Shown here piece by piece: positions 1 to 49,047 of a DNA stretch of 64,000 nt. The stretch covers positions 1 through 64,000 of the forward strand of contig JANWZE010000062.1 of NCBI GenBank assembly GCA_025054955.1. The letters run 5' to 3'. Made by a program: the position numbers and the translations under genes. This stretch comes from Blastocatellia bacterium. GTDB taxonomy: Bacteria > Acidobacteriota > Blastocatellia > HR10 > J050. The notes under the pieces are model-generated. The model was given only the letters and a program-made list of their open reading frames with translations. It was not told the DNA's origin and did not search any database. Every line of letters starts with the position of its first letter. The stretch's first letter is position 1.

Positions 1-1055
1 CCTCGATCACGCTCTGCCCGCGACAGTTCAAAGTATGGACCTTTGCCTGTACTTTTACCCTTTCCCCGCCAGTCAATATTGAGGACGGCCAAGCCAGCCC
101 GAGCTAACTCAATCTCCAACTCATGATAGGCATGACGATCACTCAACCCTGAGTGAAGCAGGATCACCGCTGGCTTCTTCCCAGTTTCCCTCTCCGGTAA
201 ACGAAAATTCCCAAAGATAGTCCAACCATCCTGCGTTTGAAACGAAACCTCGCGGAGTTGCCCGGTCATCAGCAGCAAATTTGAGATCCAGTCTCCTATT
301 TTTTCATGGAGTGGCTGCTGGTTGGGAAATTTCTGCCGATACATGCTAAACATCCATGTGCCAACACCCAATCCATCGTATATCTCAATGGTAGTGCTGG
401 CGCTATTAGACAGAAAGTACGCATCGGTCATGTCCGCGAAGCCGCGTTTATCTTCACTGCTCACCGTTAAAAAGAGGGGGAGTTTGGGGCTAGCCGCAAT
501 GTGCTGTTTGGCTACCTCACTCAGGCGACCTGAGATCAGCGCCATGGCCTGAACACGATTGTCACCAGCCCATCCCCGGACGGCAGCATCGGCACTGTGT
601 TCGACTCCCACCAAACCGACTCGCGATGCGTCAAGCATGGGCTGCTTTTCAATCAACGACATTGCCCCACGGACATCGAGATACATCCGAGATCGCTCCT
701 CATCATTGAATGAATGCTGCTCCTTCATTCCCATACTTTGACCACGACCGCGCAGATCAAGACTGAGCGTGGCGACACCGCGACTCAGAATGACGGGGGC
801 TAATCCAGGGTACTGAGAACGTCCCGGACCGGGATCACGATAGACGCCAAATGATGCGCGATCATGAGCCATGGAAGGCAGTAAGATAACGACCGGAAAC
901 TTCTGTTTGCCACTATCCGGTATGCTCAATGTACCATAGATCGTCCAACCGTCTTCCGTTTGAAAACTGATGTCTCGATCCTCAGCAGCAACGGAACTAG
1001 ACGTTGATACGCACAGCCCCATTAGCAACAACAAGCAGTGTAGTTTTGGTTTCAT
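1..1055 (-). CDS. Tandem alpha/beta-hydrolase-fold protein, 3' end cut by window
   Basis: Starts at ATG 1053-1055; the 3' end lies outside the window. A hydrophobic leader (about residues 4-20) suggests export. Domain 1 (about 30-250) carries the conserved SFQTEDGWTIYG start, AHDR after strand 3, DLRGRGQS near residue 100 and SGRLSE. Domain 2 begins near residue 265 with a second QTQDGWTIFG and continues through a second DWRGKGKS before the edge. The domain-1 nucleophile elbow reads G-V-E-H-S (150-154), with Glu where serine is expected, and the usual histidine is absent (YDGLGVGTWMF). It belongs to the same family as the genes at 12350, 17894, 30221, 30955 and 47557. It is divergent from the GGT gene with 48 bp between. 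The fold is clear; the function is unknown because triad residues are missing. Confidence 0.85.
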   Translation of the reverse strand, partial: MKPKLHCLLLLMGLCVSTSSSVAAEDRDISFQTEDGWTIYGTLSIPDSGKQKFPVVILLPSMAHDRASFGVYRDPGPGRSQYPGLAPVILSRGVATLSLDLRGRGQSMGMKEQHSFNDEERSRMYLDVRGAMSLIEKQPMLDASRVGLVGVEHSADAAVRGWAGDNRVQAMALISGRLSEVAKQHIAASPKLPLFLTVSSEDKRGFADMTDAYFLSNSASTTIEIYDGLGVGTWMFSMYRQKFPNQQPLHEKIGDWISNLLLMTGQLREVSFQTQDGWTIFGNFRLPERETGKKPAVILLHSGLSDRHAYHELEIELARAGLAVLNIDWRGKGKSTGKGPYFELSRAERDR

Positions 1056-1103
1056 GCCGACTCGATTTTTCAATGCAGCTCCGTTATAGTATCTACCTTC
1101 GCT

Positions 1104-2696: not shown

Positions 2697-2805
2697 CTGC
2701 TAGCACAACACAATCAACAAGTCAGGCAACTGAGGCGCTAGAAACCAAAATGTCTTGCTGGCGATCGCCTGCTTCATTTGCTTCATCCTCTTCCTATCTG
2801 GTGCG

Positions 2806-3360: not shown

Positions 3361-3409
3361 TGCTGTTTTCTCCTTCCCCTTTCCTCACCCTTTCATGATT
3401 GATGTGAGG

Positions 3410-9582: not shown

Positions 9583-11019
9583 CTACAATCGCTTGAACGA
9601 CTTCAAAATAGCATTGTACTGCTCTTGAGTATAATAGCCCTTAATTGACGGATCGGCCTCATAAGCGGGAATCCACTCTTCCCGCAGTAGCTCATCGGGA
9701 TTTCCATACTTGGCTGCGATGCGCCGAATCTCCGCATCATCGAGCGCCATCAGATGGCCATTGTCAACAATCTTTTGACCATTGACGGTGACCGTAGGAA
9801 ATGGGAGAAATACATCATGATGCCAGGTCGGGAGCCCCTCCTTCACTCCATCCAATCCCGACCACCCTTTGCCAAAGCCGATGTGGATGAAACCGGATCG
9901 CTTAATCTCACACCACCAGTAGTTGTATGAGCCTTGCTCAACGAAATAAGTCGGCGTGAAATAATCGGGTCGAATCACCTTGGGGCACGTGCCGATGTAA
10001 ACTCCCTCAAGCCAAGCGACACCTCGACCGTGAGGAAAGCCGTAATCAACATCTTTGTAGGCTCCAAGGCCACGACGCCATTCTTCAGCAATGGGGTCGT
10101 TACCTTCCACCTTCACGATCTGTCCACCCTCAATGTGTAGTTTCATCGGCGAGATCGGCCCCGATGGTAGTGACGTCGTCACAATCAGACCACGTCCGTC
10201 CGGTTTACGAGAGAGGCCGGGCGCGATTTTATTGTGGTGAAACATATATTCAACACGACGTGTGAGGGAAATCTCGATTCGGTTCAAATCATAAGCAAAA
10301 CTCTTCCTCACCCACTCACGATCCACGTCCTGCGTGAACGTTAGGTCTGTGCCGAGCGGATCTGTAATACGAATCACTTTGGGGCCGTCATCTACATCCG
10401 TTTGATCATAGAGCTTCCGCTGGAGCGCCACATCGAGTTCAGCCGGGAAAGTTGTCCATTTGGTGAAGGCCAACTGTTCACGTGTGTAGATATTGCCTGG
10501 CAGGCCGATCCGGCCACGATTCCATTTTGTCTCGACTGTCTGTCGCCGAATGCCGTGATTGATATTAATAGGTGTGAGGACGAGTGTGACATCCGCTTTC
10601 ATAATCGCATGCTCGAGCCATGTTGGCCACCAACTGGTCGGCTCAGACCCCATCGGTCCGACTTCAGGTGGCTCTCGATGCGGCGTCAGATCGAGGGTCA
10701 CAACGTCAACGATGGCGCCACGCTCTCTCGCTGCTTTTGCCCAAGCCTCGGTAATAAGCGGGTCGCCTACCCTTGAATCATCCAGAATGAGTACCTGCTC
10801 TCCCTGTTTGAGCTGTGTGGCGTGTTCTAGGTAATAGCGCGTGCCCGGCAAAAGCTGTTCAACAGAGGTGACTTTGTATTTGTCGGGAATGTTTGGCCGG
10901 CCTACGCTCACGGGAAAGTAGGAGAGAATCTTGTTTTCCTTCCCCTGCTCGTGTCGGTCGGACGCACGAGCAATGAACAAACAGGCCCCTATGAGTATGA
11001 TCGAGAGCATCCGATTCAT
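9583..11019 (-). CDS. Secreted NicX/M29 aminopeptidase T-like metalloprotein
   Basis: 478 residues with an N-terminal signal peptide (about 1-19). The C-terminal half has the pattern of the M29 aminopeptidase / NicX dioxygenase superfamily: ITDPLGTDLTF, LEGVYIGTCPKV (Glu before IGT), WWCEIKRSGFIHIGFGKG (Glu and His) and a late His-rich HHDVFLPFPT. These are candidate metal ligands. M29 enzymes are aminopeptidases; NicX opens 2,5-dihydroxypyridine with iron. A secreted member is unusual. The C-terminal AAKYGNPDELLREEWIPA is shared with the paralogue at 36557-38089. The start ATG overlaps the stop of the amidohydrolase at 11016 as ATGA. Confidence 0.65.
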   Translation of the reverse strand: MNRMLSIILIGACLFIARASDRHEQGKENKILSYFPVSVGRPNIPDKYKVTSVEQLLPGTRYYLEHATQLKQGEQVLILDDSRVGDPLITEAWAKAARERGAIVDVVTLDLTPHREPPEVGPMGSEPTSWWPTWLEHAIMKADVTLVLTPININHGIRRQTVETKWNRGRIGLPGNIYTREQLAFTKWTTFPAELDVALQRKLYDQTDVDDGPKVIRITDPLGTDLTFTQDVDREWVRKSFAYDLNRIEISLTRRVEYMFHHNKIAPGLSRKPDGRGLIVTTSLPSGPISPMKLHIEGGQIVKVEGNDPIAEEWRRGLGAYKDVDYGFPHGRGVAWLEGVYIGTCPKVIRPDYFTPTYFVEQGSYNYWWCEIKRSGFIHIGFGKGWSGLDGVKEGLPTWHHDVFLPFPTVTVNGQKIVDNGHLMALDDAEIRRIAAKYGNPDELLREEWIPAYEADPSIKGYYTQEQYNAILKSFKRL

Positions 11020-12353
11020 GGTTTGTTGACTCCAGCGAACGTGTTTTTGACCACTAGCCCACTTTTCATCACAAACTGCACCTGTTCGAGAACAGTGATG
11101 TCGTCAAGTGGATTCCCACTAACAGCGATGAGATCAGCCAGTTTACCAGCCTCGACCGTCCCAATCTCATGAGATAAGCGCAGCATCTCGGCGGCCACCG
11201 CTGTGGCCGACATCATCGCCTGAGCCGGCGTCATCCCCCACCGGACCATCACGGCAAATTGTCGCGCATTCCATCCTTGAGGAATGATGCCCGTGTCTGT
11301 CCCAAAAGCAATCTTAACGCCGCCCTGCACCGCCTTGCTAAAACTTTGCCGTTTTCTCTCGTGCAAGTGACGGGCTTTTTCCATGGCATGAGGTGGTTGT
11401 TTATTCTTCTCGCCTTCGATCAACGTATATTCCGACGTGAAAATGGTCGGCACAAGATAAGCACCTGTTTGCTTGAACAGGGCGATAGCTTCATCATCAA
11501 GAACGCTGCCATGCTCGATAGACCTAACACCAGCTCGTAGGGCTGATTTTGTGCCGGCAACGCCGTGTGAATGCGCGGCTACGTCCCGACCAAAACGGCG
11601 TGCTTCGTCAACCGCTGCCTTGATCTCTTCAAATGAAAATTGTTCTAAATCTGGATCGTCACCCGCTGAATAGATGCCGCCCGTGGCAGAGATTTTGATC
11701 CAATCAGCGCCCCACTTGACCTCTTTGCGTACGGCTTTCCGGACCTCATCAACCCCGTCAACAATTTCACCAAACGGTGGGATATTCAATTCCGGCGCGC
11801 CACTATTGAAATCGGCATGCCCACCGGTAATCGAAAGCAGATGACCAGCGGCCAGAATCCGTGGCCCGATAAACCGACCCGCTTTGATTGCATCCCTGAC
11901 AGCCAAGTGTGCATAAAAAGGATCCATGTCGCCTGGGTCGCGAATAGTGGTGAAACCGGCATTCAGGCATTTCTGTGCATGGAATAATCCTTCAAGGGCA
12001 TTGCGCGCCGATGAACGTTTCAGGTAATCATCCTGCGTATATCCGATTTCAGGAATGATGTGACAGTGAACGTCAATCAATCCGGGCAACACCGTTGCAC
12101 CGCGCAGATCAATCAGTGCTGCGTGCCGCGGTACCACCAGTTCATTGTTTTTGCTCACGGCTTCGATTCGTTCACCACGCACCACGACGGCCATGCCCTG
12201 TTGAGTGTGAAGCGACCGGCCATCCCAGAGCCTGCCGCATCGAATCACAACAACTTGTTCCGGCTGGGCGGCCAGAACGAATTGGCCAATGACAAGCAGG
12301 ACGAGGCAGCCGACCAAGATGCCAGGAATGAGGTAATGTCGTTTGAATCTCAT
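11016..12353 (-). CDS. Amidohydrolase, Xaa-Pro dipeptidase/imidazolonepropionase-like
   Basis: 445-residue metal-dependent hydrolase with an N-terminal hydrophobic segment (HYLIPGILVGCLVLLVIGQF) that is a signal peptide or anchor. Metal ligands follow the prolidase-type pattern: DVHCH, carboxylated Lys in ADWIKISATGG, AHSHG, SIEHGS and Asp in FGTDTG. The early VIRCGRLWDGRSL and late GTVEAGKLADLIAVSGNPLDDI strands form the small beta sandwich. Of the window's amidohydrolases it most resembles the Sgx9260-type Xaa-dipeptidases. ATG 12351-12353 overlaps the preceding stop (ATGA), which decides the start over an upstream GTG. Confidence 0.85.
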   Translation of the reverse strand: MRFKRHYLIPGILVGCLVLLVIGQFVLAAQPEQVVVIRCGRLWDGRSLHTQQGMAVVVRGERIEAVSKNNELVVPRHAALIDLRGATVLPGLIDVHCHIIPEIGYTQDDYLKRSSARNALEGLFHAQKCLNAGFTTIRDPGDMDPFYAHLAVRDAIKAGRFIGPRILAAGHLLSITGGHADFNSGAPELNIPPFGEIVDGVDEVRKAVRKEVKWGADWIKISATGGIYSAGDDPDLEQFSFEEIKAAVDEARRFGRDVAAHSHGVAGTKSALRAGVRSIEHGSVLDDEAIALFKQTGAYLVPTIFTSEYTLIEGEKNKQPPHAMEKARHLHERKRQSFSKAVQGGVKIAFGTDTGIIPQGWNARQFAVMVRWGMTPAQAMMSATAVAAEMLRLSHEIGTVEAGKLADLIAVSGNPLDDITVLEQVQFVMKSGLVVKNTFAGVNKP

Positions 12354-13810
12354 GACATGCACTCTTTCACCCAGTGAACAATTCGTTGTTCGAGCTCCTT
12401 ATCAACTTCAAAGAGTTGATAACCAACTGCTCCACCATCATAAACAATGATCTGACTTCGCTTGTCTTTCATCAGCTCGTAAAGATCCAGCATGGCGTTC
12501 GTCACCGGCCCAAGCCCGCGACTTCCGATAAACAATACGGGGAACGTTGCCTGCACAATCGCTTCTCGCTCCTGACCTGTAGGGATGTAGCCTGACAACA
12601 TCACTAAGGCACGAACTCGTTCATCCCCCAACGCCGCTGTCATGGCGAACTTTGCCCCCAGATAGGTACCAAGGATCGCCAACTTTGTCGCATCAACATC
12701 GGGTTGTGCGGCTAACACATGAAGAGCAGCTTTAGCATCTAGGTAAGCGCGATCACGATCTTCCCGCGATAGTTTGAAGTAATTACCTTTGTCTCGGCTC
12801 TTGCCACGACCCCGCCAATCAATATTGAGCACGGCAATGCCACACTGAGCGAACAATCGTTCTAGCCGATGGAAAATGTAGCGATCACTCCAACCAGAGT
12901 GAAGCAGGACGATACCCGGCGCACGCTCACCCGGTTTGAGATTTTCAGGAACTCGCAAGTTGCCGTAAATCGTCCAATCGTCTTCTGTCTTGAATGAGAT
13001 TTCCTTCATACGTCCGAGCGACTTGAGTCGGGCGACAAGCCAATCACTAATGATATTTTCAATCGGTTTCTGATCGCCTGGGTCTCGCGGCACAAGTTGG
13101 ATTTTATCCGTATCCACCCCCTGTTTGGCCAGAAAGCCGACGCCTATTGCATCTGGATAATGATAACGCCAGACGGTGAACATCGTCGTACCGACACCCA
13201 TGTCTTGATAAACCCGAATGACGCTGTCCGGATGCTTCGACGCCGCCGCAGTCGCTGACATATCAGCAAAGCCATGCTGATCGTCTTGACTCACAACGCA
13301 CAGAATTGGAACGTGCTGTCGTTCAGCCAATCGCTGGCGGGCTTGTTCGCTCAATCTGCCGGAGATGAATGCAAGCGCGATCACACGAGGATCACCTTCA
13401 GAACCCCATACGGCCCATTCGCTACCGACTTCTTCAGCCACGATAGCCAACCGCGAGGCGTCCACTTCAGGTTGTGATGCGAGAACATTCAAGGCAGCTT
13501 TGACATCAAGATAGATCCTGGATCGTTGCTCGACTGTAAACGAATGATACTCAACATCAGCAACGCTCTGACCACGGCCGCGCCAATCAATTCGCAATAC
13601 AGCCACTGCTTGCGATGATAGTATCTGTCCTAGGCCTGGATAGACGAATGATGCAAACGCATCACGATCATGAGCCGCGCCATGAAGCAGCAACGCAGCC
13701 GGGACAGGACGGTCCGAACAAGCCTGCTCCGGCAGATGGAGCGTGCCATAAATCGTGACACCGTCCTCTGTTTGAAAGTGTATCTCTCTCTCGACATCAG
13801 CCATAGACAT
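12350..13810 (-). CDS. Tandem alpha/beta-hydrolase-fold protein, degenerate triads
   Basis: 486 residues and two hydrolase domains (about 7-262 and 268-486), each opening with an xSFxTEDxWTIYG strand and carrying DWRGRG(K/Q)S. The domain-1 elbow is A-E-E-V-G (125-129) and the domain-2 elbow G-T-Y-L-G (381-385); neither has the nucleophilic Ser. The usual His positions are Thr (GVGTTMF) and Val (GGAVGYQLF). Domain 1 keeps a plausible acid in SQDDQHGF. No signal peptide is present, unlike the relatives at 17894 and 47557. It starts 1 nt after the GMC oxidoreductase stop and is followed by the amidohydrolase through an ATGA overlap. Either a pseudo-hydrolase or an enzyme with a different chemistry. 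Confidence 0.85.
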   Translation of the reverse strand: MSMADVEREIHFQTEDGVTIYGTLHLPEQACSDRPVPAALLLHGAAHDRDAFASFVYPGLGQILSSQAVAVLRIDWRGRGQSVADVEYHSFTVEQRSRIYLDVKAALNVLASQPEVDASRLAIVAEEVGSEWAVWGSEGDPRVIALAFISGRLSEQARQRLAERQHVPILCVVSQDDQHGFADMSATAAASKHPDSVIRVYQDMGVGTTMFTVWRYHYPDAIGVGFLAKQGVDTDKIQLVPRDPGDQKPIENIISDWLVARLKSLGRMKEISFKTEDDWTIYGNLRVPENLKPGERAPGIVLLHSGWSDRYIFHRLERLFAQCGIAVLNIDWRGRGKSRDKGNYFKLSREDRDRAYLDAKAALHVLAAQPDVDATKLAILGTYLGAKFAMTAALGDERVRALVMLSGYIPTGQEREAIVQATFPVLFIGSRGLGPVTNAMLDLYELMKDKRSQIIVYDGGAVGYQLFEVDKELEQRIVHWVKECMS

Positions 13811-17893: not shown

Positions 17894-19360
17894 TTATAAA
17901 TCAAACTTCGGTTTCAGCCAACTAACAATCATTGGCTGGATTTCCTCATTGAGGTCAAAGATTTGATAGCCGACCGCCCCGCCCGGATACTCGACGAGAT
18001 GGCCGCCGCGGTCCCGATTGAGACGATAATAGTCACGGAATGCATCAGCGATAGGGGGCAATCCTTGACTAGACACAAACAGGATTGGGAACTGTGCCCT
18101 GGCAACATCTTCGCGATCCGGCAATCCGCCGAGTGCCACAAATGATTTCACTCGATCATCCATGACGGCTGCATCCAATCCATACTTAGCGCCGATAGAT
18201 GTGCCGATGATGGCAAGTTGACGACCATTGACACCTTTCTGCGATCCGAGAAAGTCCATGGCCGCCCGAACATCTAGGTAGGTTTTCGCTCGCTCTTCGA
18301 GCGACAAATAGAAATAGGTTCCTTTACCGATACTTTTGCCTCTACCACGAAAATCCAGATTGAGCACAGCAAAACCCGCGTCAGCCAGCAGTCGCTCAAG
18401 GTGATCAAACACGTGCCGATCAGTGAGGTATGAATGTATCAGGATCGCACCCGGCGCACCGCTAGCGCGACTCTGCGCCGGCTGGCGAAACGTTGCATAG
18501 ATTGTCCAACCATCCTGTGTTTGAAATGACACTTCTCGCGCGAGCCGTTGCAGCTTAGGAACAAACCACTCAGCAACATGCCATTCGAGCTGTTTCTCGC
18601 CGGCTCGCGTCGCCGCCCACATGATAAACATTGAATTACCGATGCCGAGATTCTGGTAAATCCACACATCACTCCCTGGATTACGTGAGAGTTTGTAGAC
18701 ATCGGTCATGTCAATGAACCCGGCCCTGTCTTCTTTAGTCACTAGACATAGCACCGGTAGATCATCGCGGGATGGGATGAGCTCTTTCGTTTTTTCACTC
18801 AGCCGCCCGGACAGCAGCACAATGGCTCGCACGCGTGAATCTTTTATCGCCGCGCGAACGGCCGCATCAGCACTGGCACCTTCTGCGACAATGCCGATGT
18901 GATCGGCAATTACCTGCGGCTGACGACTGAGAAAGTCAATGGCGCCACTTACATCTAAAGCAACACGTTCACGTTGCTCGTTGGTGAACGTATGGTACTC
19001 CTGTGGTTCAGCGCTCTTGCCCCGCCCGCGAATGTCAATGCGCAATGTGATTGTTTTGCCGAGCGCCGTCCGCAGGTTTTCTTGAGCATATCGCTCTACC
19101 CCGATTTGATGCCGTCCCAGATAAATATCACGATCATGAGCCGGAGAGTGAACCAACACCACAGCCGGGACCTTGTCACTCCCAGCGACCATCACCGGCA
19201 CGCTCAATGTCCCGTGAATGACCCAGCCATCTTCTGCTTTGAATGAAATCTCTGTTTCGTGGAATCTCGTTTCCAAGCCAGTTCCCTGTGTTGTTGAGGC
19301 TAACACGAACGTATTCACCAACAAGATTACAGCCCATACACCACCTACAATGCTCTGCAT
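17894..19360 (-). CDS. Secreted tandem alpha/beta-hydrolase; only copy with a Ser nucleophile
   Basis: 488 residues, signal peptide about 1-25. Domain 1 (about 36-270): HDRDIYLGRHQIG, DIRGRGKS, elbow A-E-G-A-S with Gly161 in the Ser position, LLSGRLSEK, acid candidate in TKEDRAGF, and Asn at the His position (GIGNSMF). Domain 2 (about 276-488): DFRGRGKS and a canonical G-T-S-I-G elbow (S388), but no His in GGAVGYQIF and no obvious acid after the next strand. It is therefore the family member closest to an active enzyme. GAGGACG precedes ATG 19358-19360. It lies between the triheme cytochrome and a Tat small subunit. Confidence 0.87.
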   Translation of the reverse strand: MQSIVGGVWAVILLVNTFVLASTTQGTGLETRFHETEISFKAEDGWVIHGTLSVPVMVAGSDKVPAVVLVHSPAHDRDIYLGRHQIGVERYAQENLRTALGKTITLRIDIRGRGKSAEPQEYHTFTNEQRERVALDVSGAIDFLSRQPQVIADHIGIVAEGASADAAVRAAIKDSRVRAIVLLSGRLSEKTKELIPSRDDLPVLCLVTKEDRAGFIDMTDVYKLSRNPGSDVWIYQNLGIGNSMFIMWAATRAGEKQLEWHVAEWFVPKLQRLAREVSFQTQDGWTIYATFRQPAQSRASGAPGAILIHSYLTDRHVFDHLERLLADAGFAVLNLDFRGRGKSIGKGTYFYLSLEERAKTYLDVRAAMDFLGSQKGVNGRQLAIIGTSIGAKYGLDAAVMDDRVKSFVALGGLPDREDVARAQFPILFVSSQGLPPIADAFRDYYRLNRDRGGHLVEYPGGAVGYQIFDLNEEIQPMIVSWLKPKFDL

Positions 19361-23848: not shown

Positions 23849-23873
23849 CTGCACCTCCCTGCTGGCGGACCGA

Positions 23874-25634: not shown

Positions 25635-25638
25635 AATT

Positions 25639-28854: not shown

Positions 28855-30234
28855 TTACAATGAATCAATACAACTGGCCAACTGCCTTTCTAACCACAAT
28901 GGACGTGTGAGCTTTGGTTCAGGCGTTGCAATGGAATAGTCAGCGTGATAGCTTCGATCTACAATCTGCCCATCCTTGATGACCAGGTCAATCTGCCGAA
29001 TGTGGTCAATTTTCTCCAGCGGATCGGCACTGACAACAACAATATCAGCCAACTTACCCGGTTCAATCGTACCAAGTTCGTCAGCTTTCCCAAGAAAGGC
29101 TGCGTTGTCCCGTGTCGCCATCAACAGTGTCTGCATGGGCGTAAATCCAGCATCAACCAGCACGATCAACTCGCGCAGCAAACTCACGCCGGGGACAGAG
29201 TAGATCGTATCAGAACCGGCCAACACTTTTCCGCCAGCATGGTAATGGCGCTGCAATACGACCAGTAGTTTCTCAAAGCCCGAACAGACTTGCGCGAGAT
29301 CATCGGCGTTCTGCACCTCAAAGATCAATGGATGCGTGAGAAACTCACGGGTCATTGGTGGAATATAAGCCAGTGCTGGGTTGTCAGCATAGATGGCATC
29401 TTCAGAAGCAAACTCCTTTCGCCGCTCCATCGCCATTCGCCACCAATTTGCCATCGTAGGAATCAACGCCACGTCTTCTCTCACTAGCAACTCGATCAGT
29501 TTGTCAACGCGGTCAAGATTGATGAGCGAAAATGCTTTCAGCTCATCAATGAATTGTTGGAGATCACTCAACCCCGGTTCGCTGCGTCGCGTCCGCACAG
29601 CCGTTGCGTCAACCACGCCAGTAGCATGCTCAAGCCCGTCAATACCCGCCAGTGCGGCAGCATAAGCATCCGTATGGGCAATGTGACCAGTAACGCGAAT
29701 GCCAAGTTCGTGTGCGCGTTCACACACAGCTTGTAACAACCCGGGGGTGATTTTCTCACGGACCTTGATGGCTGCTGCACCTCGCTCGTACAAAAGCTCT
29801 ACGGCTTTCTTGGCTGCCTCAGGGCTTTGCAATCCAACATGGTGTTCTCGAAATGGGGGCGGTGCATCCAGGCCATTGCCCACATAATAGATGCGCGGGC
29901 CGCGAACTTTTCCTTCATTCACGTCGGCGCTGATGGACGAAATCCATTCAACGTCATTCCCCATGTCTTTCACGGTTGTCACACCGTGAGACAAAAAGAG
30001 CTCTCCCATCCAACCCTGGTAGTGAACGTGAATGTCAATCAATCCAGGTAATATGAATTTGCCTGTTGCATCAACACGCTGAACCTCGCTGTTGATGGGG
30101 ACACAGTGACGAGGCCCGACAGCCACGATGCGATTCCCCTCAACCACAACCACACCGTCTTGCAGCGGTTCGCCTCCACAACCGTCAATAATCGTTCCGC
30201 CGACGAGAGCGAAGCCCTGTTCAGACCGGGACAC
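28855..30234 (-). CDS. Imidazolonepropionase-like amidohydrolase (RPxWLERQL-tail subfamily), no signal peptide
   Basis: 459 residues. DIHVHYQGWMGELFLSHGVTT, AAIKVREK (Lys), VTGHIAH, LEHATGV and LAGSDT give the complete metal set. The tail ends RPLWLERQL, as in the genes at 22382, 45604 and 50437. Unlike those, it begins directly at the beta-sandwich (ALVGGTIIDGCGG) and should be cytoplasmic. The start is GTG 30232-30234 preceded by GGAGGAGG, overlapping the 3' end of the hydrolase gene at 30221 by 14 nt. Confidence 0.85.
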   Translation of the reverse strand: MSRSEQGFALVGGTIIDGCGGEPLQDGVVVVEGNRIVAVGPRHCVPINSEVQRVDATGKFILPGLIDIHVHYQGWMGELFLSHGVTTVKDMGNDVEWISSISADVNEGKVRGPRIYYVGNGLDAPPPFREHHVGLQSPEAAKKAVELLYERGAAAIKVREKITPGLLQAVCERAHELGIRVTGHIAHTDAYAAALAGIDGLEHATGVVDATAVRTRRSEPGLSDLQQFIDELKAFSLINLDRVDKLIELLVREDVALIPTMANWWRMAMERRKEFASEDAIYADNPALAYIPPMTREFLTHPLIFEVQNADDLAQVCSGFEKLLVVLQRHYHAGGKVLAGSDTIYSVPGVSLLRELIVLVDAGFTPMQTLLMATRDNAAFLGKADELGTIEPGKLADIVVVSADPLEKIDHIRQIDLVIKDGQIVDRSYHADYSIATPEPKLTRPLWLERQLASCIDSL

Positions 30235-30955
30235 AACCTCCTCCAGACGTTTTCTTTGCCTTCCGATTCAACTGCTCATCCAACCAGACTGCGATCATAT
30301 CCTCAAGTGGTTGCTCGTCAGGGTATTCAAACCGCCACGCGCTGAACATCGTCGTGCCGAAACCAAGTCCTTCAAATACCTTCAAGCGACTTTTGCTGTT
30401 GCGTGATGCGAGGTATAGTTCTGTCATGTCTCTTAACCCAAGGCGATCCTCCTTGCTGACCAGACAAAAAACCGGCGCCCTGACATTCTGCATCACTTTC
30501 TTAGCTGACTCACCAAGCCGGCCGGAAATGAATACATATGCTATAAGGCGCCGGTCCCTGGCGCTGGCCAATGCCGCGGCATGAGCGTTGTCCTGCTCAG
30601 CCACAATGGCTAGCCGCTCCGCATCTACACCTTGCTGGCAGGCAAGAAACTCGATGGCGGCCTCAATATCAAGAGTGACTCGCTTTTTCTCCTCCGGAGC
30701 CAATGAATCGAACACCTGCGGCTCACGACTCGCGCCACGACCCCGCAGATCAATCCTCAACACGGCTATATGATACTTGCTGAGTGAATGGGGCAGACCG
30801 CTTGAGGTCAGTTGACCATACGCATCCGCTTCATGCTTTGAGCCATGAACTAATACAACGCCCGCCACCGGCGTCACACGTTCGGGAACATACAGCATAC
30901 CTACGATGCGCCAGCCATCTGTCGTTTGAAACATGATCTGACGCTCGCCCGTCAT
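30221..30955 (-). CDS. Single-domain relative of the tandem alpha/beta hydrolases (domain-1 type)
   Basis: 244 residues corresponding to domain 1 of the tandem family: IMFQTTDGWRIVG, VLVHGSKHEADAYG, DLRGRGAS, elbow A-E-Q-D-N (Gln121 at the Ser position), VFISGRLGES, acid candidate in SKEDRLGL, and Thr at the His position (GFGTTMF). Start and the upstream stop share TGATG, so translation is coupled to the gene at 30955. It probably complements that gene, whose own first domain is eroded. Confidence 0.82.
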   Translation of the reverse strand: MTGERQIMFQTTDGWRIVGMLYVPERVTPVAGVVLVHGSKHEADAYGQLTSSGLPHSLSKYHIAVLRIDLRGRGASREPQVFDSLAPEEKKRVTLDIEAAIEFLACQQGVDAERLAIVAEQDNAHAAALASARDRRLIAYVFISGRLGESAKKVMQNVRAPVFCLVSKEDRLGLRDMTELYLASRNSKSRLKVFEGLGFGTTMFSAWRFEYPDEQPLEDMIAVWLDEQLNRKAKKTSGGGCVPV

Positions 30956-32202
30956 CACCCCAATCCTTGTTTGAGCCATTGGACAATCGTTGGTTCTAAT
31001 TGAGGGTGCAGTTCGAAGAGTTGATACCCAATCGCCCCGCCATCATAAATCAGTAGCCGCGCCAACTTGTCCGTTGTCGCTTCATACAATTCATGCATCG
31101 CTTTGGTGACGACACGATGGCCTCGGCATGAGACGTACATCACATGCACGTGCCCCCCTGTCAGCAGCTTCCGCTCCGCCTCGCTGATTGGCACGTAGCC
31201 TGTCAGCAGCGCCAACGCCTTGACGCGTGAGTCTCCAATGGAGCAACGAACGGCATGCTCGGCGCCGTGAACGATTCCGACCAATCCAATGCGCTGTGCG
31301 TCAACGACGTCCTGAGAGGCAAGATAGTTGATCGCTGCTCTGGCATCCAACCAACCATTGGCGCGCTCCTCTTGAGATAGATCAAAATAGCGGCCCTTAT
31401 TCACGCTCTTGCCTCGGCCGCGCCAATCAATATTGAGCACGGCAAGGCCGGCCCTGACCAGTAGCCGCTCCAAGTTAGCGAAAACATACCGATCGCTGCG
31501 ACCAGAATGAAGCAGGACTATGCCGGGTACCTTCTTTGCTGAAGGATCAGGCAGTAGCAGATTGCCGAAAATCCTCCAACCATCTTCCGACAGAAACGAC
31601 ACTTCGCGGGCGCGACCGACTGAAATGAGCTCGTTACGAATCCAATTAGCAATGAACTGAGCGAGTGGTTCGCGTTCAGGAAATTGTTCAGACCACGCTT
31701 CAATCATTGCCAGGCCACGACCAAGCCCTTCAAACACCCGAATATCCGAATTCGACCGGTCTGACTCGAGGTAAACAGTCGTCATGTCTCGCAATGCGTT
31801 CCTATCTTCGCTACTGACCAAACACAGAACCGCATTATTTCGCCATTCGACCAATGTCTCCACAGCTTTTTTGTTCAACCGTCCTGACAACAACACAAAC
31901 GACCGCACGCAGGATTCGGTGCGAGCGCCGAGTACGGCAGCGCTGGCTGCATCCGTTTCTACCAACACGGCCACCCGATGACTGTTTTCGCCGCATTTCC
32001 TGGAGAGAAAACGAATCGAAGAGCTCACCGCTTCAGCCGTGCGGTCGGACAGGCGAACGCGCAGCGTCGCCAATCCAGCAGCACACAGAGCTGAGAGCAA
32101 TTGATCGTGTCCACCCGTTGGCTGACGATCTGACAAAAACACAACCACACCGCCGACAGGCGTGGCGTCAGGCAATAACAGCCTTTTCCTACCCAGACTC
32201 AT
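30955..32202 (-). CDS. Tandem alpha/beta-hydrolase-fold protein with eroded first domain
   Basis: 415 residues. Domain 1 (about 8-190) has lost the opening strand, the HDRD segment and DxRGRGxS; its elbow is V-E-T-D-A. Domain 2 (about 198-415) is intact in outline: VSFLSEDGWRIFG, LLHSGRSDRYVF, DWRGRGKS, but the elbow G-I-V-H-G has Val311 for Ser, and GGAIGYQLF lacks His. ATG 32200-32202 overlaps the stop of the luciferase-like gene as ATGA. No signal peptide. Confidence 0.8.
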   Translation of the reverse strand: MSLGRKRLLLPDATPVGGVVVFLSDRQPTGGHDQLLSALCAAGLATLRVRLSDRTAEAVSSSIRFLSRKCGENSHRVAVLVETDAASAAVLGARTESCVRSFVLLSGRLNKKAVETLVEWRNNAVLCLVSSEDRNALRDMTTVYLESDRSNSDIRVFEGLGRGLAMIEAWSEQFPEREPLAQFIANWIRNELISVGRAREVSFLSEDGWRIFGNLLLPDPSAKKVPGIVLLHSGRSDRYVFANLERLLVRAGLAVLNIDWRGRGKSVNKGRYFDLSQEERANGWLDARAAINYLASQDVVDAQRIGLVGIVHGAEHAVRCSIGDSRVKALALLTGYVPISEAERKLLTGGHVHVMYVSCRGHRVVTKAMHELYEATTDKLARLLIYDGGAIGYQLFELHPQLEPTIVQWLKQGLG

Positions 32203-33203
32203 GACTGAAAATGAGGAATGATCTCTTGGCCAAATCGCGCGATACATTTGAGTACCTCTTGATGACTCGGTCCTTGCGGATGTCGTAGCAAGAGGATTAA
32301 CGTCTCGCAGCCAATCTCCGTGCGATAGCGCTCGATCTGCCCAACCACGTCATCGGGTGTACCAGCAATCAATCGGTCAGGCCCAATTCTCTCAAACGTC
32401 CAATCTGCTTCACCTCCTGCCAACATAAGATCCTTGAACAATCCCATCTTGGCATAAGGCTGGAAGAAGGCTCTGACACGAGGCCACCACTGTTCAGCAA
32501 TGTCGCTACGGTTGTCACCTATCCACGCGCTGCGTGCCAGTAGCACTTCCGATTTCCTGCTGTGCTCGGCGGCCGTCTGCCGATAGAGGTTAGCCCACTC
32601 CTTGATAGTGGCGAGACTCTGCAAATTATCTGTCGGCCAACCGTCACCGAGGCGCCCCGCACGCAACAGGCCGGGTTTGGAGAGTGCGCCGATCCAGATT
32701 GGCGGCCCTCCGCGTTGAACGGGCCGTGGCGAAATGCGCACATTATCGAGCGTGAAATACTCCCCGCCATAGGAAAACGATTCGTTCGCCCATGCCTGTC
32801 GAATGATCTGGACACTCTCTTCAAATCGCCTGACAATGCCCTCTCTGGGAATGCCAAATGCTGATCGGTCTCTCTGTCCCAGGCCGACGCCGAGTGCGAA
32901 TCGCCCATGTGAAATATTGTCAACGACTGCGCCCATCTCTGCCACGTGCAGGGGATGCCACATGGGAAGTTGCATCACATCAGAAGCCACAACCATTCGG
33001 CTTGTGCGTGCAGCAAGAGCAGCGCAAAATGTGAGCGCCGACGGTAAACAGCCATCCAGACTGTGATGATGCTCGCCCACCACAGCTAACTCGAACCCAG
33101 CTTGCTCGGCCGCCTCTGCTTCACGAAATGCCTCATCATAGATGCGAGCAATATCGTCTCCGCGCGGCGGGTCTTGTGTGTTTAGGACAATGCCAAATCT
33201 CAT
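32199..33203 (-). CDS. LLM-class flavin-dependent oxidoreductase (luciferase-like)
   Basis: 334-residue TIM-barrel protein: MRFGIVLNTQDPP, VVGEHHHSLDGCLPSAL, GRFALGVGLGQRDRSAFGI, PIWIGALSKPGLLRAGRLGDGW and a late GTPDDVVGQIERY. The family oxidises substrates with reduced FMN or F420; EHH and the GxGxG-like strand are typical. A monooxygenase or F420-dependent dehydrogenase role is likely; the cofactor cannot be told from sequence. The start directly abuts the MFS stop (TGAATG). It is cytoplasmic. Confidence 0.87.
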   Translation of the reverse strand: MRFGIVLNTQDPPRGDDIARIYDEAFREAEAAEQAGFELAVVGEHHHSLDGCLPSALTFCAALAARTSRMVVASDVMQLPMWHPLHVAEMGAVVDNISHGRFALGVGLGQRDRSAFGIPREGIVRRFEESVQIIRQAWANESFSYGGEYFTLDNVRISPRPVQRGGPPIWIGALSKPGLLRAGRLGDGWPTDNLQSLATIKEWANLYRQTAAEHSRKSEVLLARSAWIGDNRSDIAEQWWPRVRAFFQPYAKMGLFKDLMLAGGEADWTFERIGPDRLIAGTPDDVVGQIERYRTEIGCETLILLLRHPQGPSHQEVLKCIARFGQEIIPHFQS

Positions 33204-34595
33204 TCACCCCACCTCAACCGTCTTGACGACGCGAATCTGACGGGGCGCAGTTCGCCAAATCAACCACACCGACGTTACCATTGCCAGAGCGGCCATCACG
33301 AAACTCAACTTATATCCCTGCGTGATGTCAAAAAACAATCCGCTCAACCAACCACCCACGCCGCCAACGGTCCATCCACCGAGCATGATGATGCCAAGAA
33401 TGGAACCGAAATGTTTACCTTCAAATAAATCGGCAACCGATGCCATTAACGACGGCAAGCACATGCCTCCAGCCAACCCAAATGCCACAGCGTAGCTGTA
33501 TACCAGAACGGGGTTCACAAACAAGCTGCAGAGGCTCAACAATACCAGGCTGACCAAATAGGCGGTGACAGCGAGTGTTAGCGTCACCTCTCGCCCGATG
33601 CGATCAGATAAGATGCCGCCCCAAACTCGGCCCAGCATGTTGATCAGCCCTTGCACACTCATGACGGAGGCAGCCATCACCGTTCCGTAGCCGTGATCAA
33701 CCAGATAGGCAACCAACTGCACCGATGTCAAGAAAAGTCCCATCGCATAGGAAGCCAACACACTCATCATAAGCCAGAACCGAGAGGTCTTCACGGCTGT
33801 CGCAACCGTCCACTCAGTGGATGCCCATGTCTGATCAAGAACGACCACCTCACGTCTGCGCGTCTGACTCCATATTCCTCCGATGGCTGATTTCTTCTGA
33901 ACGACGTCGGACGCTGACTTTTCCCGCCAGGGCCATGGAAGACGTTCATCCTTGACTGACAACCCGATGTCCTCTGGTCGAGAGTGAAGCAATAGCAATG
34001 CCAACGTCGTAGGCATAAGTAATATAATCAGGCCGAGCGCGAAATAGGCCCAGCGCCAGCCAACCCGATCAATCGTGAATTGAAGTACCGGCAACAGGAC
34101 CTGTCCGATGCTTTGTCCGACACCGACGAGGCCAATGGCTGTACCACGATGCCGCTCAAACCATTTTGACACAAGTGAGGTCAGTGGGGTGAAGTACAGC
34201 ATTGAGCTGCCAACGGCTGCAAGCACGCCGAAGGCAACATAGAAATGCCAGATGGCGCTGCATTGGCTCATCCAAACAAAACCAATTGCCGTCAACGCCG
34301 CACCCAGTGGCATGATGATTCGTGGGCCGTATCGGTCCATTAATCCACCAGCAAACGGCGACGCAAGGCCGCTCAGCACCATGTGGATCGTCATTGCGGT
34401 TGCCGTATCCGCACGGTTCCACTTGAATTCCTCCAGCACTGATACATACAAGAGTGAAAAGCCATCAAGCACAATGGAAATCGGCGCTAGGATGATGACA
34501 CACACTAGCACCACAACCCAGCCGTAGTAGATGCGATCACACCGAGAGGATACCTGAACACCGATTATATGGCCACCTGTCTCCATTCCCGGCAT
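33204..34595 (-). CDS. MFS transporter, OFA (oxalate/formate antiporter)-like, copy A
   Basis: About 463 residues, 12 predicted membrane segments. Opens with YYGWVVVLVCVIILAP; loop 2-3 motif GGLMDRYGPR; central loop EVVVLDQTWASTEW joined to TAVKTSRFWLM; the C half has VWGGILSDRIGREVTL. The same architecture and central-loop motif occur in the MFS genes at 34606, 38105 and 41113. It probably imports or exchanges small organic anions released by the periplasmic enzymes (inference). The start is uncertain: ATG 34593-34595 or ATG 34584-34586. Confidence 0.85.
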   Translation of the reverse strand: MPGMETGGHIIGVQVSSRCDRIYYGWVVVLVCVIILAPISIVLDGFSLLYVSVLEEFKWNRADTATAMTIHMVLSGLASPFAGGLMDRYGPRIIMPLGAALTAIGFVWMSQCSAIWHFYVAFGVLAAVGSSMLYFTPLTSLVSKWFERHRGTAIGLVGVGQSIGQVLLPVLQFTIDRVGWRWAYFALGLIILLMPTTLALLLLHSRPEDIGLSVKDERLPWPWREKSASDVVQKKSAIGGIWSQTRRREVVVLDQTWASTEWTVATAVKTSRFWLMMSVLASYAMGLFLTSVQLVAYLVDHGYGTVMAASVMSVQGLINMLGRVWGGILSDRIGREVTLTLAVTAYLVSLVLLSLCSLFVNPVLVYSYAVAFGLAGGMCLPSLMASVADLFEGKHFGSILGIIMLGGWTVGGVGGWLSGLFFDITQGYKLSFVMAALAMVTSVWLIWRTAPRQIRVVKTVEVG

Positions 34596-34605
34596 GACAG
34601 CGGAA

Positions 34606-35976
34606 CTATGAACCGACCAAAACAGTCCGAACAATCCGGACTTGGCTGGGCCGTGCTTTCCAGATCAAGACGCCTGAGGCAATCATCACCGCTCCAGCAA
34701 CGATGAACATAGCCTCATAAGACTTTGTCACATCATACAGGTATCCACCACCCCATACACCAAGTGCCCCGCCAGCAAATCCACCGATCATCAAAACGCC
34801 AATGATCGAGCCTAGATTTCTACCCTGAAAAATATCGCCGGCGGCAGCCATGAGCACCGGCAACGTCATTCCTGATCCAACACCGTAGAAGATCGAAAAT
34901 ACGTAGACGAGAAACGGGCTGACGAGTAGGCCACAAATATACAACAACACGAGGCAAATAACCGATGAGGCAACACTCAATGTGAGCGTTTTCTCGCGCC
35001 CGATATGATCCGACATCAATCCGCCCAAGAACCGGCCGAAAATGTTAATCAATCCCTGCAATCCAATCACCGAGGCCGCCAAAATCGAACTATATCCCTT
35101 GTCGGTTAAATAGGCGGCTAACTGCACAGCCATCATCATAAAACCAGTGGCAAACAGAGCCATCAAGATCGTCAATGTCCAAAACCGGCTCGTTTGAACC
35201 GCCTTCGCAACCGTCCAATCTATGCCGGCCCAATCTGGATCAACAACAATCACTTCACGCTTGCGTGCTGTTCTGGTATGGGAAGCTATGGCATCACCTG
35301 GATGAGCGTTGTGCCACGGCAACCGCTCGTCAACCAGCGTGAGTCCTCGATCCTCAGGCCTGCGCTCCAGAAACAACACAATCAATGTCGTAGGAACGAA
35401 CAGCAACAGCGCGCCAATGAGCAGATAGGTTTGCCGCCAGCCAATGTGATCAATAGCATACTGTAAGATTGGCATGCAGACTTGCCCAACGCCTTGACCG
35501 GCTGTCACAATGCCAATGGCTAAGCCTCGATGGCGGATAAACCACTTCGACACGATGGCCGTGAGCGGAACGATATGGATCAATGCAGAGCCGGCAGAAG
35601 CCAATACGCCGTAGGCCAGATAAAATTCCCATTGCGCTTCTATCTGACTCAACCAGAGCAAGGCGACCGCTGTACTGACCGTACCGATGGACATAACCCA
35701 CTTGGGTTTGTACCGATCAAACAGCCAGCCGGAAACCGGTCCGGCTAAGCCAGTTACCACCATAAAAATAGCTAGCGCCAGCGCAGTGTCAGCACGGCTC
35801 CACTTGAGGTCATTTAACAAAGCCACGTAGAAGATGGAGAACGAGGCTAGCAACGGAGCTGCTAGTGTCATGACCACGAGACAGACCAATACAATGACCC
35901 AACCATAATAGAATCGGCCAGAGGGCTGCGAGGTCTGTGCAGTCATGCGTTGATCAGGTGGCTGTGTTGTTCGCAC
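34606..35976 (-). CDS. MFS transporter, OFA-like, copy B
   Basis: 456 residues with 12 membrane segments: FYYGWVIVLVCLVVMTLA, GWLFDRYKPKW, a central loop EVIVVDPDWAGIDW then AVQTSRFWTLT, and GGLMSDHIGREKTL. Closest to copies A and C in this window. The start is GTG 35974-35976 or ATG 35944-35946. It is 18 bp after the cytochrome-HhH gene. Confidence 0.85.
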   Translation of the reverse strand: MRTTQPPDQRMTAQTSQPSGRFYYGWVIVLVCLVVMTLAAPLLASFSIFYVALLNDLKWSRADTALALAIFMVVTGLAGPVSGWLFDRYKPKWVMSIGTVSTAVALLWLSQIEAQWEFYLAYGVLASAGSALIHIVPLTAIVSKWFIRHRGLAIGIVTAGQGVGQVCMPILQYAIDHIGWRQTYLLIGALLLFVPTTLIVLFLERRPEDRGLTLVDERLPWHNAHPGDAIASHTRTARKREVIVVDPDWAGIDWTVAKAVQTSRFWTLTILMALFATGFMMMAVQLAAYLTDKGYSSILAASVIGLQGLINIFGRFLGGLMSDHIGREKTLTLSVASSVICLVLLYICGLLVSPFLVYVFSIFYGVGSGMTLPVLMAAAGDIFQGRNLGSIIGVLMIGGFAGGALGVWGGGYLYDVTKSYEAMFIVAGAVMIASGVLIWKARPSQVRIVRTVLVGS

Positions 35977-44430: not shown

Positions 44431-44489
44431 GATCGTTTCTGGGCGTCGCCACCGACGACATGAACAACGCCTCGCTCGAATACACTGGC

Positions 44490-45575: not shown

Positions 45576-45603
45576 GATCTCTTTTCCTCCTTTTCAAGTT
45601 GCT

Positions 45604-47058
45604 TCAATTGCTTTCGGCGAGTAGACGTTCCAGATAAAGCGGCCGGACCAGCTGCGGCCGTGACGGCGGCAACGCATAGTCGGGCTGGAAACGAATTTCT
45701 ATTAGCTGTCCACCCTGAAACACCTTCTCGATCTCTCGTAAATGTCTTATGTTATCGAGCGGATTGGCTCTGACGACGAGCATATCGGCAATTTGACCGG
45801 GCTCAATCGAGCCGAGGTCACGACGGTTCAAAAACCGTGCGGCAGAATGAGTGGCCGCCCGCAACGCGTGGTATGGTTCCAATCCGGCGGCCACCAGACT
45901 TTCAAGTTCTCGGTGGAGCGTGATGCCCGGCACGCCATTGAGGTTGTCTGAGCCGGCTAGCACCAAGCCACCGGCCCGGTGGAATTCCCGCACGAAACGC
46001 TCCAGCCGCCGGTAGCCTTTCCGCATCATATCCATCTCCGCGCCGCGAAATGCTTCAAGGATTTTCTGCTCAACAGGCGCCTCAATCCAATGCCGCCGCA
46101 CCGACTCAGGGACATACGCGAGCGATGGATCGCGGGCATATTTGCTGTCTTCCTGACGCGCGAGCTCGGTATCCAACAAAATACGCCGGCGCACAGCCAG
46201 CGTGGGGATGAGCGCTACACGCTTTTCAACAAGCTTTTTGATGAGCGCCGTTTCCTTGGCCTTATCCATCTGTGAAAAACCGCGCAGATCTTCGAGGAAA
46301 ACGGCCAAGCCCTTGGCATCTGTCTTGACCTGTCCAGGCATTTTGGACGCCGCTCGCGCCACGCCGGTCGCGTGTTCAAGGCCGTCTAAACCGGATTGCG
46401 CGGCTTCCATCGCATCCGTTTTGCCAAGATGGCCCGTCACGGGAAGGTCGAGCGCATGAGCGGCCTTCGTTATCTCAGCTAGTTGGTCAGGCGTCACTTT
46501 GTGCCGGACCTTGATCGCCGTCACGCCCAACTGATGAAGCAATCGGACCGCCCGCTCAATATCCGATGAATTGGCTATGCCGATATGATGATCACCTTCA
46601 GGCGGCGAGGCATCTAGATTGTTGCCGACAAAGAAAAGACGCGGCCCGCGCAACTGACCCGCGACCTGCATTCGACTCAATGCGGAAATCCACTCGACAG
46701 GATTACCGAGATCTTTCACGCTGGTGATGCCGTGCGCCAAAAACAACTCGCCCTGCCACTCCCGATAATGCGTGTGCATGTCAATGAGTCCGGGCACGAC
46801 ATACATGCCGGCGGCTTCCACCACTTGCGCATCACGCGGCCATTTCACTTTTCCTGCGCGACCGACCGTTTTGATCCTGTCCCCCTCAATGACGACTACG
46901 CCGCCTCGAATAGGAGCTCGCCCCGTGCCATCAATCACCGTCGCGCCCGTGATGACTGTGACCTGAGGTCCGGTCGCAGCCGTCGTGAGCGTCAACACCA
47001 GCAGCGTGACGAAACACGCACACAGAGCGGCAGAGGCCATCGCTTTCTGCCGATTCAT
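45604..47058 (-). CDS. Secreted imidazolonepropionase-like amidohydrolase (RPxWLERQL-tail subfamily)
   Basis: 484 residues, signal peptide about 1-28. DMHTHYREWQGELFLAHGITS, TAIKVRHK (Lys), VTGHLGK, LEHATGV and LAGSDN complete the metal set, with Asn after the catalytic Asp where the paralogues have Thr. The tail runs DYALPPSRPQLVRPLYLERLL, a slight variant. GAAGGA precedes ATG 47056-47058. Encoded next to a tandem hydrolase and a small barrel protein, repeating the association seen at 11-14 kb and 28-32 kb. Confidence 0.86.
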   Translation of the reverse strand: MNRQKAMASAALCACFVTLLVLTLTTAATGPQVTVITGATVIDGTGRAPIRGGVVVIEGDRIKTVGRAGKVKWPRDAQVVEAAGMYVVPGLIDMHTHYREWQGELFLAHGITSVKDLGNPVEWISALSRMQVAGQLRGPRLFFVGNNLDASPPEGDHHIGIANSSDIERAVRLLHQLGVTAIKVRHKVTPDQLAEITKAAHALDLPVTGHLGKTDAMEAAQSGLDGLEHATGVARAASKMPGQVKTDAKGLAVFLEDLRGFSQMDKAKETALIKKLVEKRVALIPTLAVRRRILLDTELARQEDSKYARDPSLAYVPESVRRHWIEAPVEQKILEAFRGAEMDMMRKGYRRLERFVREFHRAGGLVLAGSDNLNGVPGITLHRELESLVAAGLEPYHALRAATHSAARFLNRRDLGSIEPGQIADMLVVRANPLDNIRHLREIEKVFQGGQLIEIRFQPDYALPPSRPQLVRPLYLERLLAESN

Positions 47059-47087
47059 TCCTTCGCGGTTATGGTGCATCGGTGTGG

Positions 47088-47543: not shown

Positions 47544-47556
47544 GTCGCTCCTCCTC

Positions 47557-49047
47557 CTAGAATTTCGTTTCATTCAATCGCTCTTTGAACCACTGTACAA
47601 GCGTGGAGCCGAGCGTCACGTCAACCTCAAACAACGAGTAGCCTAACATGCCACCCGGATAGACGAGGATTTTGTTTCGACCGTTTCGGGCAACGAACTC
47701 CACAAATGCTTTCGACGACGCGCCGAACGCATCGCCGGTGACGAGTAGGACAGGTTGCTTAATGGCCGCTGCGATTTCGCAGTCACCAGCCAACTCATGC
47801 GGCTTCACCACCGGCGTGAGCATGGCGATGGCTTTCACCTGCGGAATCTCTCGAGCTGCGCTCAAAGCGAGCTTGGCGCCGAATGCTGTACCGAGAATGC
47901 CGATGCGTTCCCGATCAATGCCTGGCTGGGAAAGCAAAAATTTATATCCCTCCAGAACGTCGTTCAATGCCTCAGACATGGTCTCGACGGACATATCCAA
48001 CAAAGTTCCACGATTCGTACTCTGACCGATGCCACGCCAGTCCAAATTCAGCACAGCTATACCCTGTTTGACAAATGCGCGTTCAAGGTTGTAGTAGCTC
48101 ATGCGGTCGGAAAGCGCTGTCGGCAACAGGATGACACCAGGGACAAGTTGATCGGTACTAGTTCGATCCGGTAATCCCAGATGAGCATAAAGAATCCAAC
48201 CATCCTGCGTCTGAAGCATGACCTCGCCAATCGGCTCAGGGCGCCGCAGTGCATTGACAAGCCAGGCCCCGGCCCTAAAATCAATCGCTTGTTCGAGCGG
48301 TTGATTGGGATATTTGTTGCGCCACAGACTGCCCATCGCCAGACCGACGCCGAGTCCATCCTGAACCCAGATTTCGCTTGTCGAGGACGCCATCAGACGG
48401 TGCGCTCCGAGCAAACTGTCGAGGCTCGGCTTGTCTTCGCGACTAACGATGAACAACACGGATTTGTCCGAGTAAGCAGTCATAAGGGCTAATGCTTGTT
48501 CACTGAGACGGCCTGAAATGATGACAAAGGCTTTCACGCGCGCATCTCCAGCCGCTTCAATGATAGCTGGATCAGCGCTGAATCCTTCAGCCGCCACACC
48601 GATCTGCATCGCATTGACCTCCGGCTGTGCGGCTAGAAAATCAATGGCGGCTCTTACATCCAACCTCACCCGTTCGCGCTGCGCCGGCGAGAAAGCAGCA
48701 AAGGGAATTTGCCTCTTACTTTTCCCGCACCCGCGCCAATCAATTCGCAGCGTAACGAGTGACTCTTGAACCTTCACCCAACCAGGATATACAGCCCAAA
48801 CAATCTGCGTGTGCGTAGCACCGTGTAATAACAAGGCCGCCGGCCGCTTTTCTTCATGCCGCAAATTAACCGGGATCGTCAGCGTACCATAGATCGTCCA
48901 ATCGTCTTCGGTCTTGAATGAGATTTCTTTCTGTATAGCCTGAGGCGCTTGAATTATTTCTATAGACGAGTTCTGCGCAGACACCGGAGGTCCACCAGCA
49001 GTTGCGAGCCATACAAACATGAGGAAGGAGTAATAACTAAGCCCCAT
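47557..49047 (-). CDS. Secreted tandem alpha/beta-hydrolase-fold protein, no nucleophile
   Basis: 496 residues, signal peptide about 1-24. Domain 1: ISFKTEDDWTIYG, LLHGATH, DWRGCGKS, elbow A-E-G-F-S (Gly155 for Ser), IISGRLSEQ, acid candidate in SREDKPSL, Leu at the His position (GVGLAMG). Domain 2: TQDGWILYA, ALSDRMSYYNLERAF, DWRGIGQS, elbow G-T-A-F-G (Ala388 for Ser), GGMLGYSLF without His. Both triads are incomplete. It follows the ACS-type MFS gene by 12 bp and precedes the small barrel protein by 13 bp. Confidence 0.86.
   Translation of the reverse strand: MGLSYYSFLMFVWLATAGGPPVSAQNSSIEIIQAPQAIQKEISFKTEDDWTIYGTLTIPVNLRHEEKRPAALLLHGATHTQIVWAVYPGWVKVQESLVTLRIDWRGCGKSKRQIPFAAFSPAQRERVRLDVRAAIDFLAAQPEVNAMQIGVAAEGFSADPAIIEAAGDARVKAFVIISGRLSEQALALMTAYSDKSVLFIVSREDKPSLDSLLGAHRLMASSTSEIWVQDGLGVGLAMGSLWRNKYPNQPLEQAIDFRAGAWLVNALRRPEPIGEVMLQTQDGWILYAHLGLPDRTSTDQLVPGVILLPTALSDRMSYYNLERAFVKQGIAVLNLDWRGIGQSTNRGTLLDMSVETMSEALNDVLEGYKFLLSQPGIDRERIGILGTAFGAKLALSAAREIPQVKAIAMLTPVVKPHELAGDCEIAAAIKQPVLLVTGDAFGASSKAFVEFVARNGRNKILVYPGGMLGYSLFEVDVTLGSTLVQWFKERLNETKF

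Follow-up and report, generated by a model that had tools for sequence, protein, structure and literature searches.

Proteins with the alpha/beta-hydrolase fold carry their active site at the C-terminal strand ends. In the plant protein GID1, the catalytic His of this fold is replaced by Val or Ile and gibberellin is bound in the old pocket (PMC4728528, PMC3531792). NDRG3 has lost the whole catalytic triad (PMC7022630). More broadly, NDRG proteins, neuroligins, gliotactin, and thyroglobulin retain the fold with non-reactive residues in place of the triad (PMC7022630), as do the bacterial proteins described here; those animal proteins belong to other subfamilies, however, without such tandem duplication or a catabolic-island context. 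A literature search yielded no relevant paper on tandem or acidobacterial pseudo-hydrolases. The proteins described here are best read as a new family of pseudo-hydrolases with a tandem alpha/beta-hydrolase fold and seven orthologous types. They share with GID1 the fold, replacement of His by Val or Ile (V/I/L in domain 2 of the family), a retained acid Asp (in domain 1 of the family), and an origin from active enzymes (PMC4728528, PMC3531792). GID1 is a single-domain plant protein that keeps its Ser and has an HSL-type lid and a DELLA partner, whereas the present proteins are bacterial, tandem, and multi-paralogue and lie closest to dienelactone hydrolase (DLH)/UilS-type hydrolases rather than to HSL. 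GID1-like descent from hormone-sensitive lipases (PF07859) was rejected, with only one copy (c6) matching at 18.8 bits against a cut-off of 25, and no NDRG family occurs among Pfam matches at E <= 0.01. The proteins are members of neither the GID1 nor the NDRG family; by analogy, GID1 is their nearest precedent in mechanism.

The window covers the initial 64 kb of contig C62 (104,672 bases) in a draft genome of 4.69 Mb. Six loci that a preliminary description had recognized as fused hydrolase domains or parts of them (c1 to c6; Table 1) are confirmed as ORFs, all on the minus strand. Pairwise BLASTP between copies gives E values down to 1e-124, and the two domains can be aligned with each other both within and between copies; c2, c3, and c6 each contain two complete alpha/beta-hydrolase domains. 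The c4 and c5 genes overlap by 25 bases, an arrangement that recurs in a second draft genome of the same class and a different family (G014; JAHBSF01, 'Acidobacteria bacterium isolate ACE_ACI1'). To judge from their phylum and from the shapes of related genomes, the class is probably Blastocatellia. Domain 1 of c5 lacks the DxRGRGxS segment, a deletion common to c5 and its G014 orthologue. The tail of c1 lies on the adjoining contig (C84:1-315), where it gives the Val elbow of domain 2, and is followed directly by a complete seventh copy (C84:312-1745). This placement of the tail implies that C62 reversed and C84 forward form one nearly co-directional island; within its first 62.7 kb, C62 has 47 of its 49 larger ORFs on the minus strand. 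Judged by eye, signal peptides are likely on c1, c3, c6, and the C84 copy, with none on c2, c4, and c5, so periplasmic action is not needed for all copies.

Table 1. Positions in the window of the tandem pseudo-hydrolases and of neighbouring amidohydrolase and transporter genes
Feature	Position	Strand	Remarks
c1, tandem pseudo-hydrolase, cut by contig edge	3..1073	-	Domain-1 elbow Glu; domain-2 elbow Val
c2, complete tandem pseudo-hydrolase, 486 aa	12350..13810	-	Domain 1: elbow E127, His column V206, invariant acid D177; domain 2: elbow Y383, His column V462
c2 codon for His47	13670..13672	-	Conserved domain-1 column
c3, tandem pseudo-hydrolase, 488 aa from ATG	17894..19360	-	Domain-1 elbow Gly; domain-2 Ser388, without His and acid
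c4, domain 1 only	30221..30979	-	Elbow Gln
c5, tandem, shortened domain 1	30955..32247	-	Domain-1 elbow Thr; domain-2 elbow Val
c6, tandem pseudo-hydrolase, 496 aa	47557..49047	-	Domain-1 elbow Gly; domain-2 elbow A388
Amidohydro_1 protein, overlaps c2	11016..12362	-	
Amidohydro_1, island clade	22382..23935	-	
Amidohydro_1	27391..28848	-	
Amidohydro_1, island clade, overlaps c4	28855..30234	-	
Amidohydro_1, island clade, next but one to c6	45604..47079	-	
Amidohydro_1, island clade, without metal-binding Asp	50437..51897	-	
MFS transporter, G014 C87 trio type, 45.5% identical	33204..34634	-	
MFS transporter, G014 C87 trio type, 50% identical	34606..35976	-	
MFS transporter beside c6	49060..50394	-	Orthologue beside G014 c6 orthologue, 70% identical

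AlphaFold2 predicts two confident domains in both c2 (pLDDT 91.3, pTM 0.75) and c3 (pLDDT 88.1, pTM 0.64), and in the c2 model E127 and Y383 have a nucleophile-like placement between strand and helix. Foldseek matches include PET46, thermophilic lipases, feruloyl esterases, and dienelactone hydrolase 2o2g (TM by target 0.83), with an E value of 2e-14, and five of the six window proteins score above the gathering threshold of Pfam alpha/beta-hydrolase models. Structure prediction, Foldseek, and Pfam together place the proteins in the alpha/beta-hydrolase-fold superfamily. The closest sequence families of the domains are UilS-type lactonases (NF047920), FrsA esterases (NF003460), and DLH (PF01738). 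These are catalytic enzymes, whereas here the triads are missing and scores fall far below the NCBIfam equivalog cut-offs: the best score is 61.5 bits for UilS (curated cut-off 400) and 46.7 bits for FrsA (curated cut-off 477), and neither assignment was accepted. PF01738 scores pass the gathering cut-off of 21 bits in c2 (47.8), c3 (27.4), c5 (21.7), and c6 (43.4), but assignment to DLH was rejected because the nucleophile-His-Asp set is missing. PET46/MHETase-like hydrolases and 2o2g, the best profile or Foldseek matches to single domains of the family, are active enzymes with intact triads and are ~15-21% identical to the family domains. Classification as catalytic serine hydrolases was rejected on both the elbow nucleophile and the His.

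Catalytic residues were compared in an alignment of 17 members from the two genomes, which comprises 32 domains. Ser is lost in 30 of these, the exceptions being the second domains of c3 and its orthologue, and His is absent from the catalytic position after strand 8 in every one (0/32). The elbow is occupied by E, G, Q, T, or R in domain 1 and by Y, S, A, V, I, or D in domain 2, and the His column by V/I/R/F/M/S and V/I/L, respectively. The acid Asp after strand 7 is present in domain 1 of all 17 members; in domain 2 the column holds L, F, H, I, or M instead. Three single-domain proteins from the same class, used as an outgroup (L024, L025, L028), all have Ser and the catalytic-loop His, and eight ordinary Hydrolase_4-type proteins encoded in the window's own genome, read by eye, all retain an elbow nucleophile (seven Ser, one Asp) and an intact catalytic-loop His. 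In a PDB profile alignment, the His of an MHETase-type hydrolase falls on the aliphatic position of the family. Classical Ser-His hydrolysis has very probably been lost in these proteins.

The preliminary description had read the domain-1 elbows of c1 to c6 as E, E, G, Q, T, and G and the domain-2 elbows of c2, c3, c5, and c6 as Y383, S388, V311, and A388, with a single window copy retaining Ser and with His replaced in every readable domain; these readings all agree with the alignment, numbering included. Its interpretation of SGRLSE as a general fold motif needs revision, as this motif is specific to domain 1 and lies on the pocket face. It had also allowed that a triad might be supplied by other residues or that these positions might vary at random. 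In the alignment no other Ser/His pair replaces the triad, and the residues are mostly fixed per orthologous group, above all in domain 2.

Domain 1 has acquired a residue set of its own. Nine positions (H47, G59, A125, E126, R152, A157, E176, M210, and R215) reach 85% or more conservation among non-degenerate domain-1 copies and differ from both the domain-2 consensus and the intact outgroups. His47 is present in 15/15 non-degenerate domain-1 copies, is not the consensus in domain 2, and is absent from the outgroups. E126 and R152 are each found in 13/15, E176 in 14/15, and D177 in 17/17; c1 and its orthologue G_c1a have no E126. Seven of the nine positions lie in loops past the C-terminal strand ends, on the pocket face (P = 0.0007, elbow included). 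This enrichment, tested post hoc, is also found with strand ends taken from -1 to +10 (P = 0.0024) and with strict DSSP ends (5/9 positions, P = 0.035). Mean information in pocket-face loops is 2.59 versus 1.99 in opposite-face loops for domain 1, and 2.70 versus 2.00 for domain 2. Residue gain on the pocket face together with loop conservation suggests, on this post hoc basis, re-use of the site rather than decay.

G014 contains an orthologue, 50-64% identical, of every type (c1 to c6 and C84); rpoB is 72% identical between the two genomes. In the domain tree, domain 1 forms one clade (99/98), domain 2 another (97/94), and the paralogue types are resolved. Since each domain is one clade, a single fusion of two domains followed by paralogue radiation is indicated. 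Among the relatives found, intact serine hydrolases with a single domain are the nearest. Between-genome pairs are mostly saturated at synonymous sites and dN/dS was taken from G014 paralogues, of which three pairs give 0.14-0.15 and the closest pair gives 0.27. The domain-2 elbow is identical between orthologues in five types (Y, S, A, V, D) and is V/I in c5; a distant extra c6-like copy on G014 C87 has I. The domain-1 elbow is kept in c2, c3, c4, and the C84 type and changed in c1 (E vs G), c5 (T vs R), and c6 (G vs E). At ~60% overall identity, elbow identity across orthologues would, taken alone, be modest evidence. Recurrence of all seven types as orthologous groups, with dN/dS of 0.14-0.27, indicates that the genes are not decaying. 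The preliminary proposals that classical hydrolysis is not what selection acts on and that the proteins form an undescribed pseudo-hydrolase family both gain support from cross-family orthologous groups, low dN/dS, loss of His in 32/32 domains, and new group-specific conserved residues on the pocket face.

The family has a narrow distribution. A single-protein scan of GTDB contigs returned no relatives and an alignment-based scan returned only G014 and weak ordinary hydrolases. At E <= 1e-40, members of the family occur in 2 of the 162 genomes of the class and in 2 of the 396 genomes sampled from the phylum. Plasmids gave only ordinary partial hydrolase matches and viral contigs gave none. The genes lie in an island of ~80 kb (C84:1-16.4 kb plus C62 to ~63 kb) that is common to both genomes, and most of it has reciprocal best hits in G014 contigs C126, C131, and C166. 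Its gene products, assigned from family matches or by eye, include acyl-CoA ligases, two PaaK-like ligases, acyl-CoA dehydrogenases, an enoyl-CoA hydratase, and thiolase-like proteins with DUF35-like partners. It also includes GMC oxidoreductases with gluconate-dehydrogenase-type small subunits, TenA/haem-oxygenase-like proteins, Amidohydro_1 and Amidohydro_2 enzymes, MFS transporters, and TonB-dependent receptors. On these assignments it is a CoA-dependent catabolic island. Recent horizontal transfer is not favoured, with island proteins ~50-80% identical against 72% for rpoB; the island pattern is equally compatible with an old transfer and with wide loss.

Several other features of these genomes were observed. 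Thiolase-like and DUF35-like genes are paired at C84:4789-6371 and C84:10567-12148, and by eye these pairs recall the side-chain retro-aldolases of steroid catabolism. In phylum genomes G281, G289, G358, G372, G442, and G463, several GMC oxidoreductases on multiple contigs show 41-49% identity to that at window positions 23874-25670, and these loci are possibly related catabolic clusters without pseudo-hydrolases. Two minus-strand genes in the window (9583-11019 and 36557-38089) encode proteins of ~480-510 aa that begin with signal-peptide-like sequences, appear to form one family, and by eye resemble M29-type aminopeptidases; neither has a Pfam match, and the former also has no PDB match. In G014, recA (C111:33772-35628) is broken by a ~350-aa insertion with intein-like ends.

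Amidohydrolases and MFS transporters are recurrent neighbours of the pseudo-hydrolases (Table 1). Among the 162 class genomes, the island Amidohydro_1 clade is found in the genome of the window and in G014, plus one weak match, and apart from that match its distribution is that of the pseudo-hydrolases. On G014 C87, outside the island, an MFS transporter, an island-clade amidohydrolase, and a pseudo-hydrolase lie side by side; of the other ORFs examined at C87:18-42 kb, a single one matches the island contigs, weakly (30%), and the gene that it matches is not in the conserved part. By eye, L024, one of the three intact single-domain relatives, adjoins an amidohydrolase-like protein with a signal peptide. 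The amidohydrolase at 50437-51897 has GSST, and its G014 orthologue (C131:96175-97656) has GSAQ, in place of GSDT, with HxH kept in both; this pair is a candidate second pseudoenzyme in the island. Two amidohydrolases that are separate genes in the window are joined head to tail in one 995-aa ORF at G014 C126:28620-31607.

We propose, at about even probability, that these proteins, no longer catalytic, bind ligands or act as partners of the neighbouring amidohydrolases and MFS transporters; this and the other probabilities expressed here are judgements. The comparisons above show a single fusion of two domains ahead of the paralogue radiation and the disappearance of His from every domain and of Ser from nearly all, with purifying selection preserving the fold, the domain-1 Asp, and a new domain-1-specific residue set on the old active-site face. 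The old pocket of one or both domains may bind a small molecule of the island pathway uncut, or a protein partner, and the protein could serve the adjacent amidohydrolases and MFS transporters as a carrier or accessory subunit without catalytic activity. The isolated trio on G014 C87, the matching distribution of the amidohydrolase clade, and the precedents of GID1 and NDRG3 strengthen this proposal, and it is weakened by the variable domain-1 His column, by elbow changes in the c1, c5, and c6 groups, and by the trio being a single case. A fuller version, in which seven receptors or carriers with their own rebuilt pockets each join a cognate amidohydrolase and MFS transporter in one module to recognise and hand over different island intermediates, is tentative and somewhat doubtful.

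Other explanations bear on the same evidence. The double domain might be a protein-protein module of the neuroligin or NDRG kind that holds amidohydrolases or other island enzymes together, with the pocket irrelevant. The recurring neighbourhood of amidohydrolases and MFS transporters fits such a scaffold, as does the action of known non-enzymatic fold members in protein scaffolds (PMC7022630), but pocket-face loops are more conserved than opposite-face loops in both domains and the domain-1-specific residues lie mostly on the pocket face, and we consider a pure scaffold rather unlikely. These residues raise the alternative of a putative new catalytic site in domain 1, where His47, Glu126, Asp177, and Arg152 would support a non-classical reaction. 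Their near-invariance, like that of E176, and their location at C-terminal strand ends, where the fold has its active site, are in its favour. However, c1 and G_c1a lack E126, the elbow nucleophile position is not a fixed reactive residue, and a charged binding site explains the same pattern; new catalysis is unlikely. Some copies could still carry out ordinary hydrolysis, for instance if Ser388 of c3 worked with another base, and the Ser is kept in the G014 orthologue, yet both proteins lack His and acid in domain 2 and no catalytic-loop His is conserved, which leaves this very improbable. Relaxed selection on decaying hydrolase duplicates in an amplified island would account for replacement of Ser and His by many different residues and for the missing domain 2 of c4 and part of domain 1 of c5. 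Against it, all ORFs are open in both genomes, the seven types have their orthologues in another family, dN/dS is low, and the c5 deletion and c4/c5 overlap are common to both genomes; decay of the genes is already contradicted and this explanation is the least credible of all.

The family appears to represent a bacterial, tandem, multi-paralogue case in which a hydrolase pocket became a non-catalytic site and was split into seven versions. Such conversion is directly testable because intact relatives can serve as ancestor models, orthologues are available from a second genome, and the three-gene unit offers a candidate partner enzyme. If the proteins do act as a receptor or carrier module, they would provide an example of bacterial conversion of an enzyme to a binding protein, followed by diversification of its paralogues.
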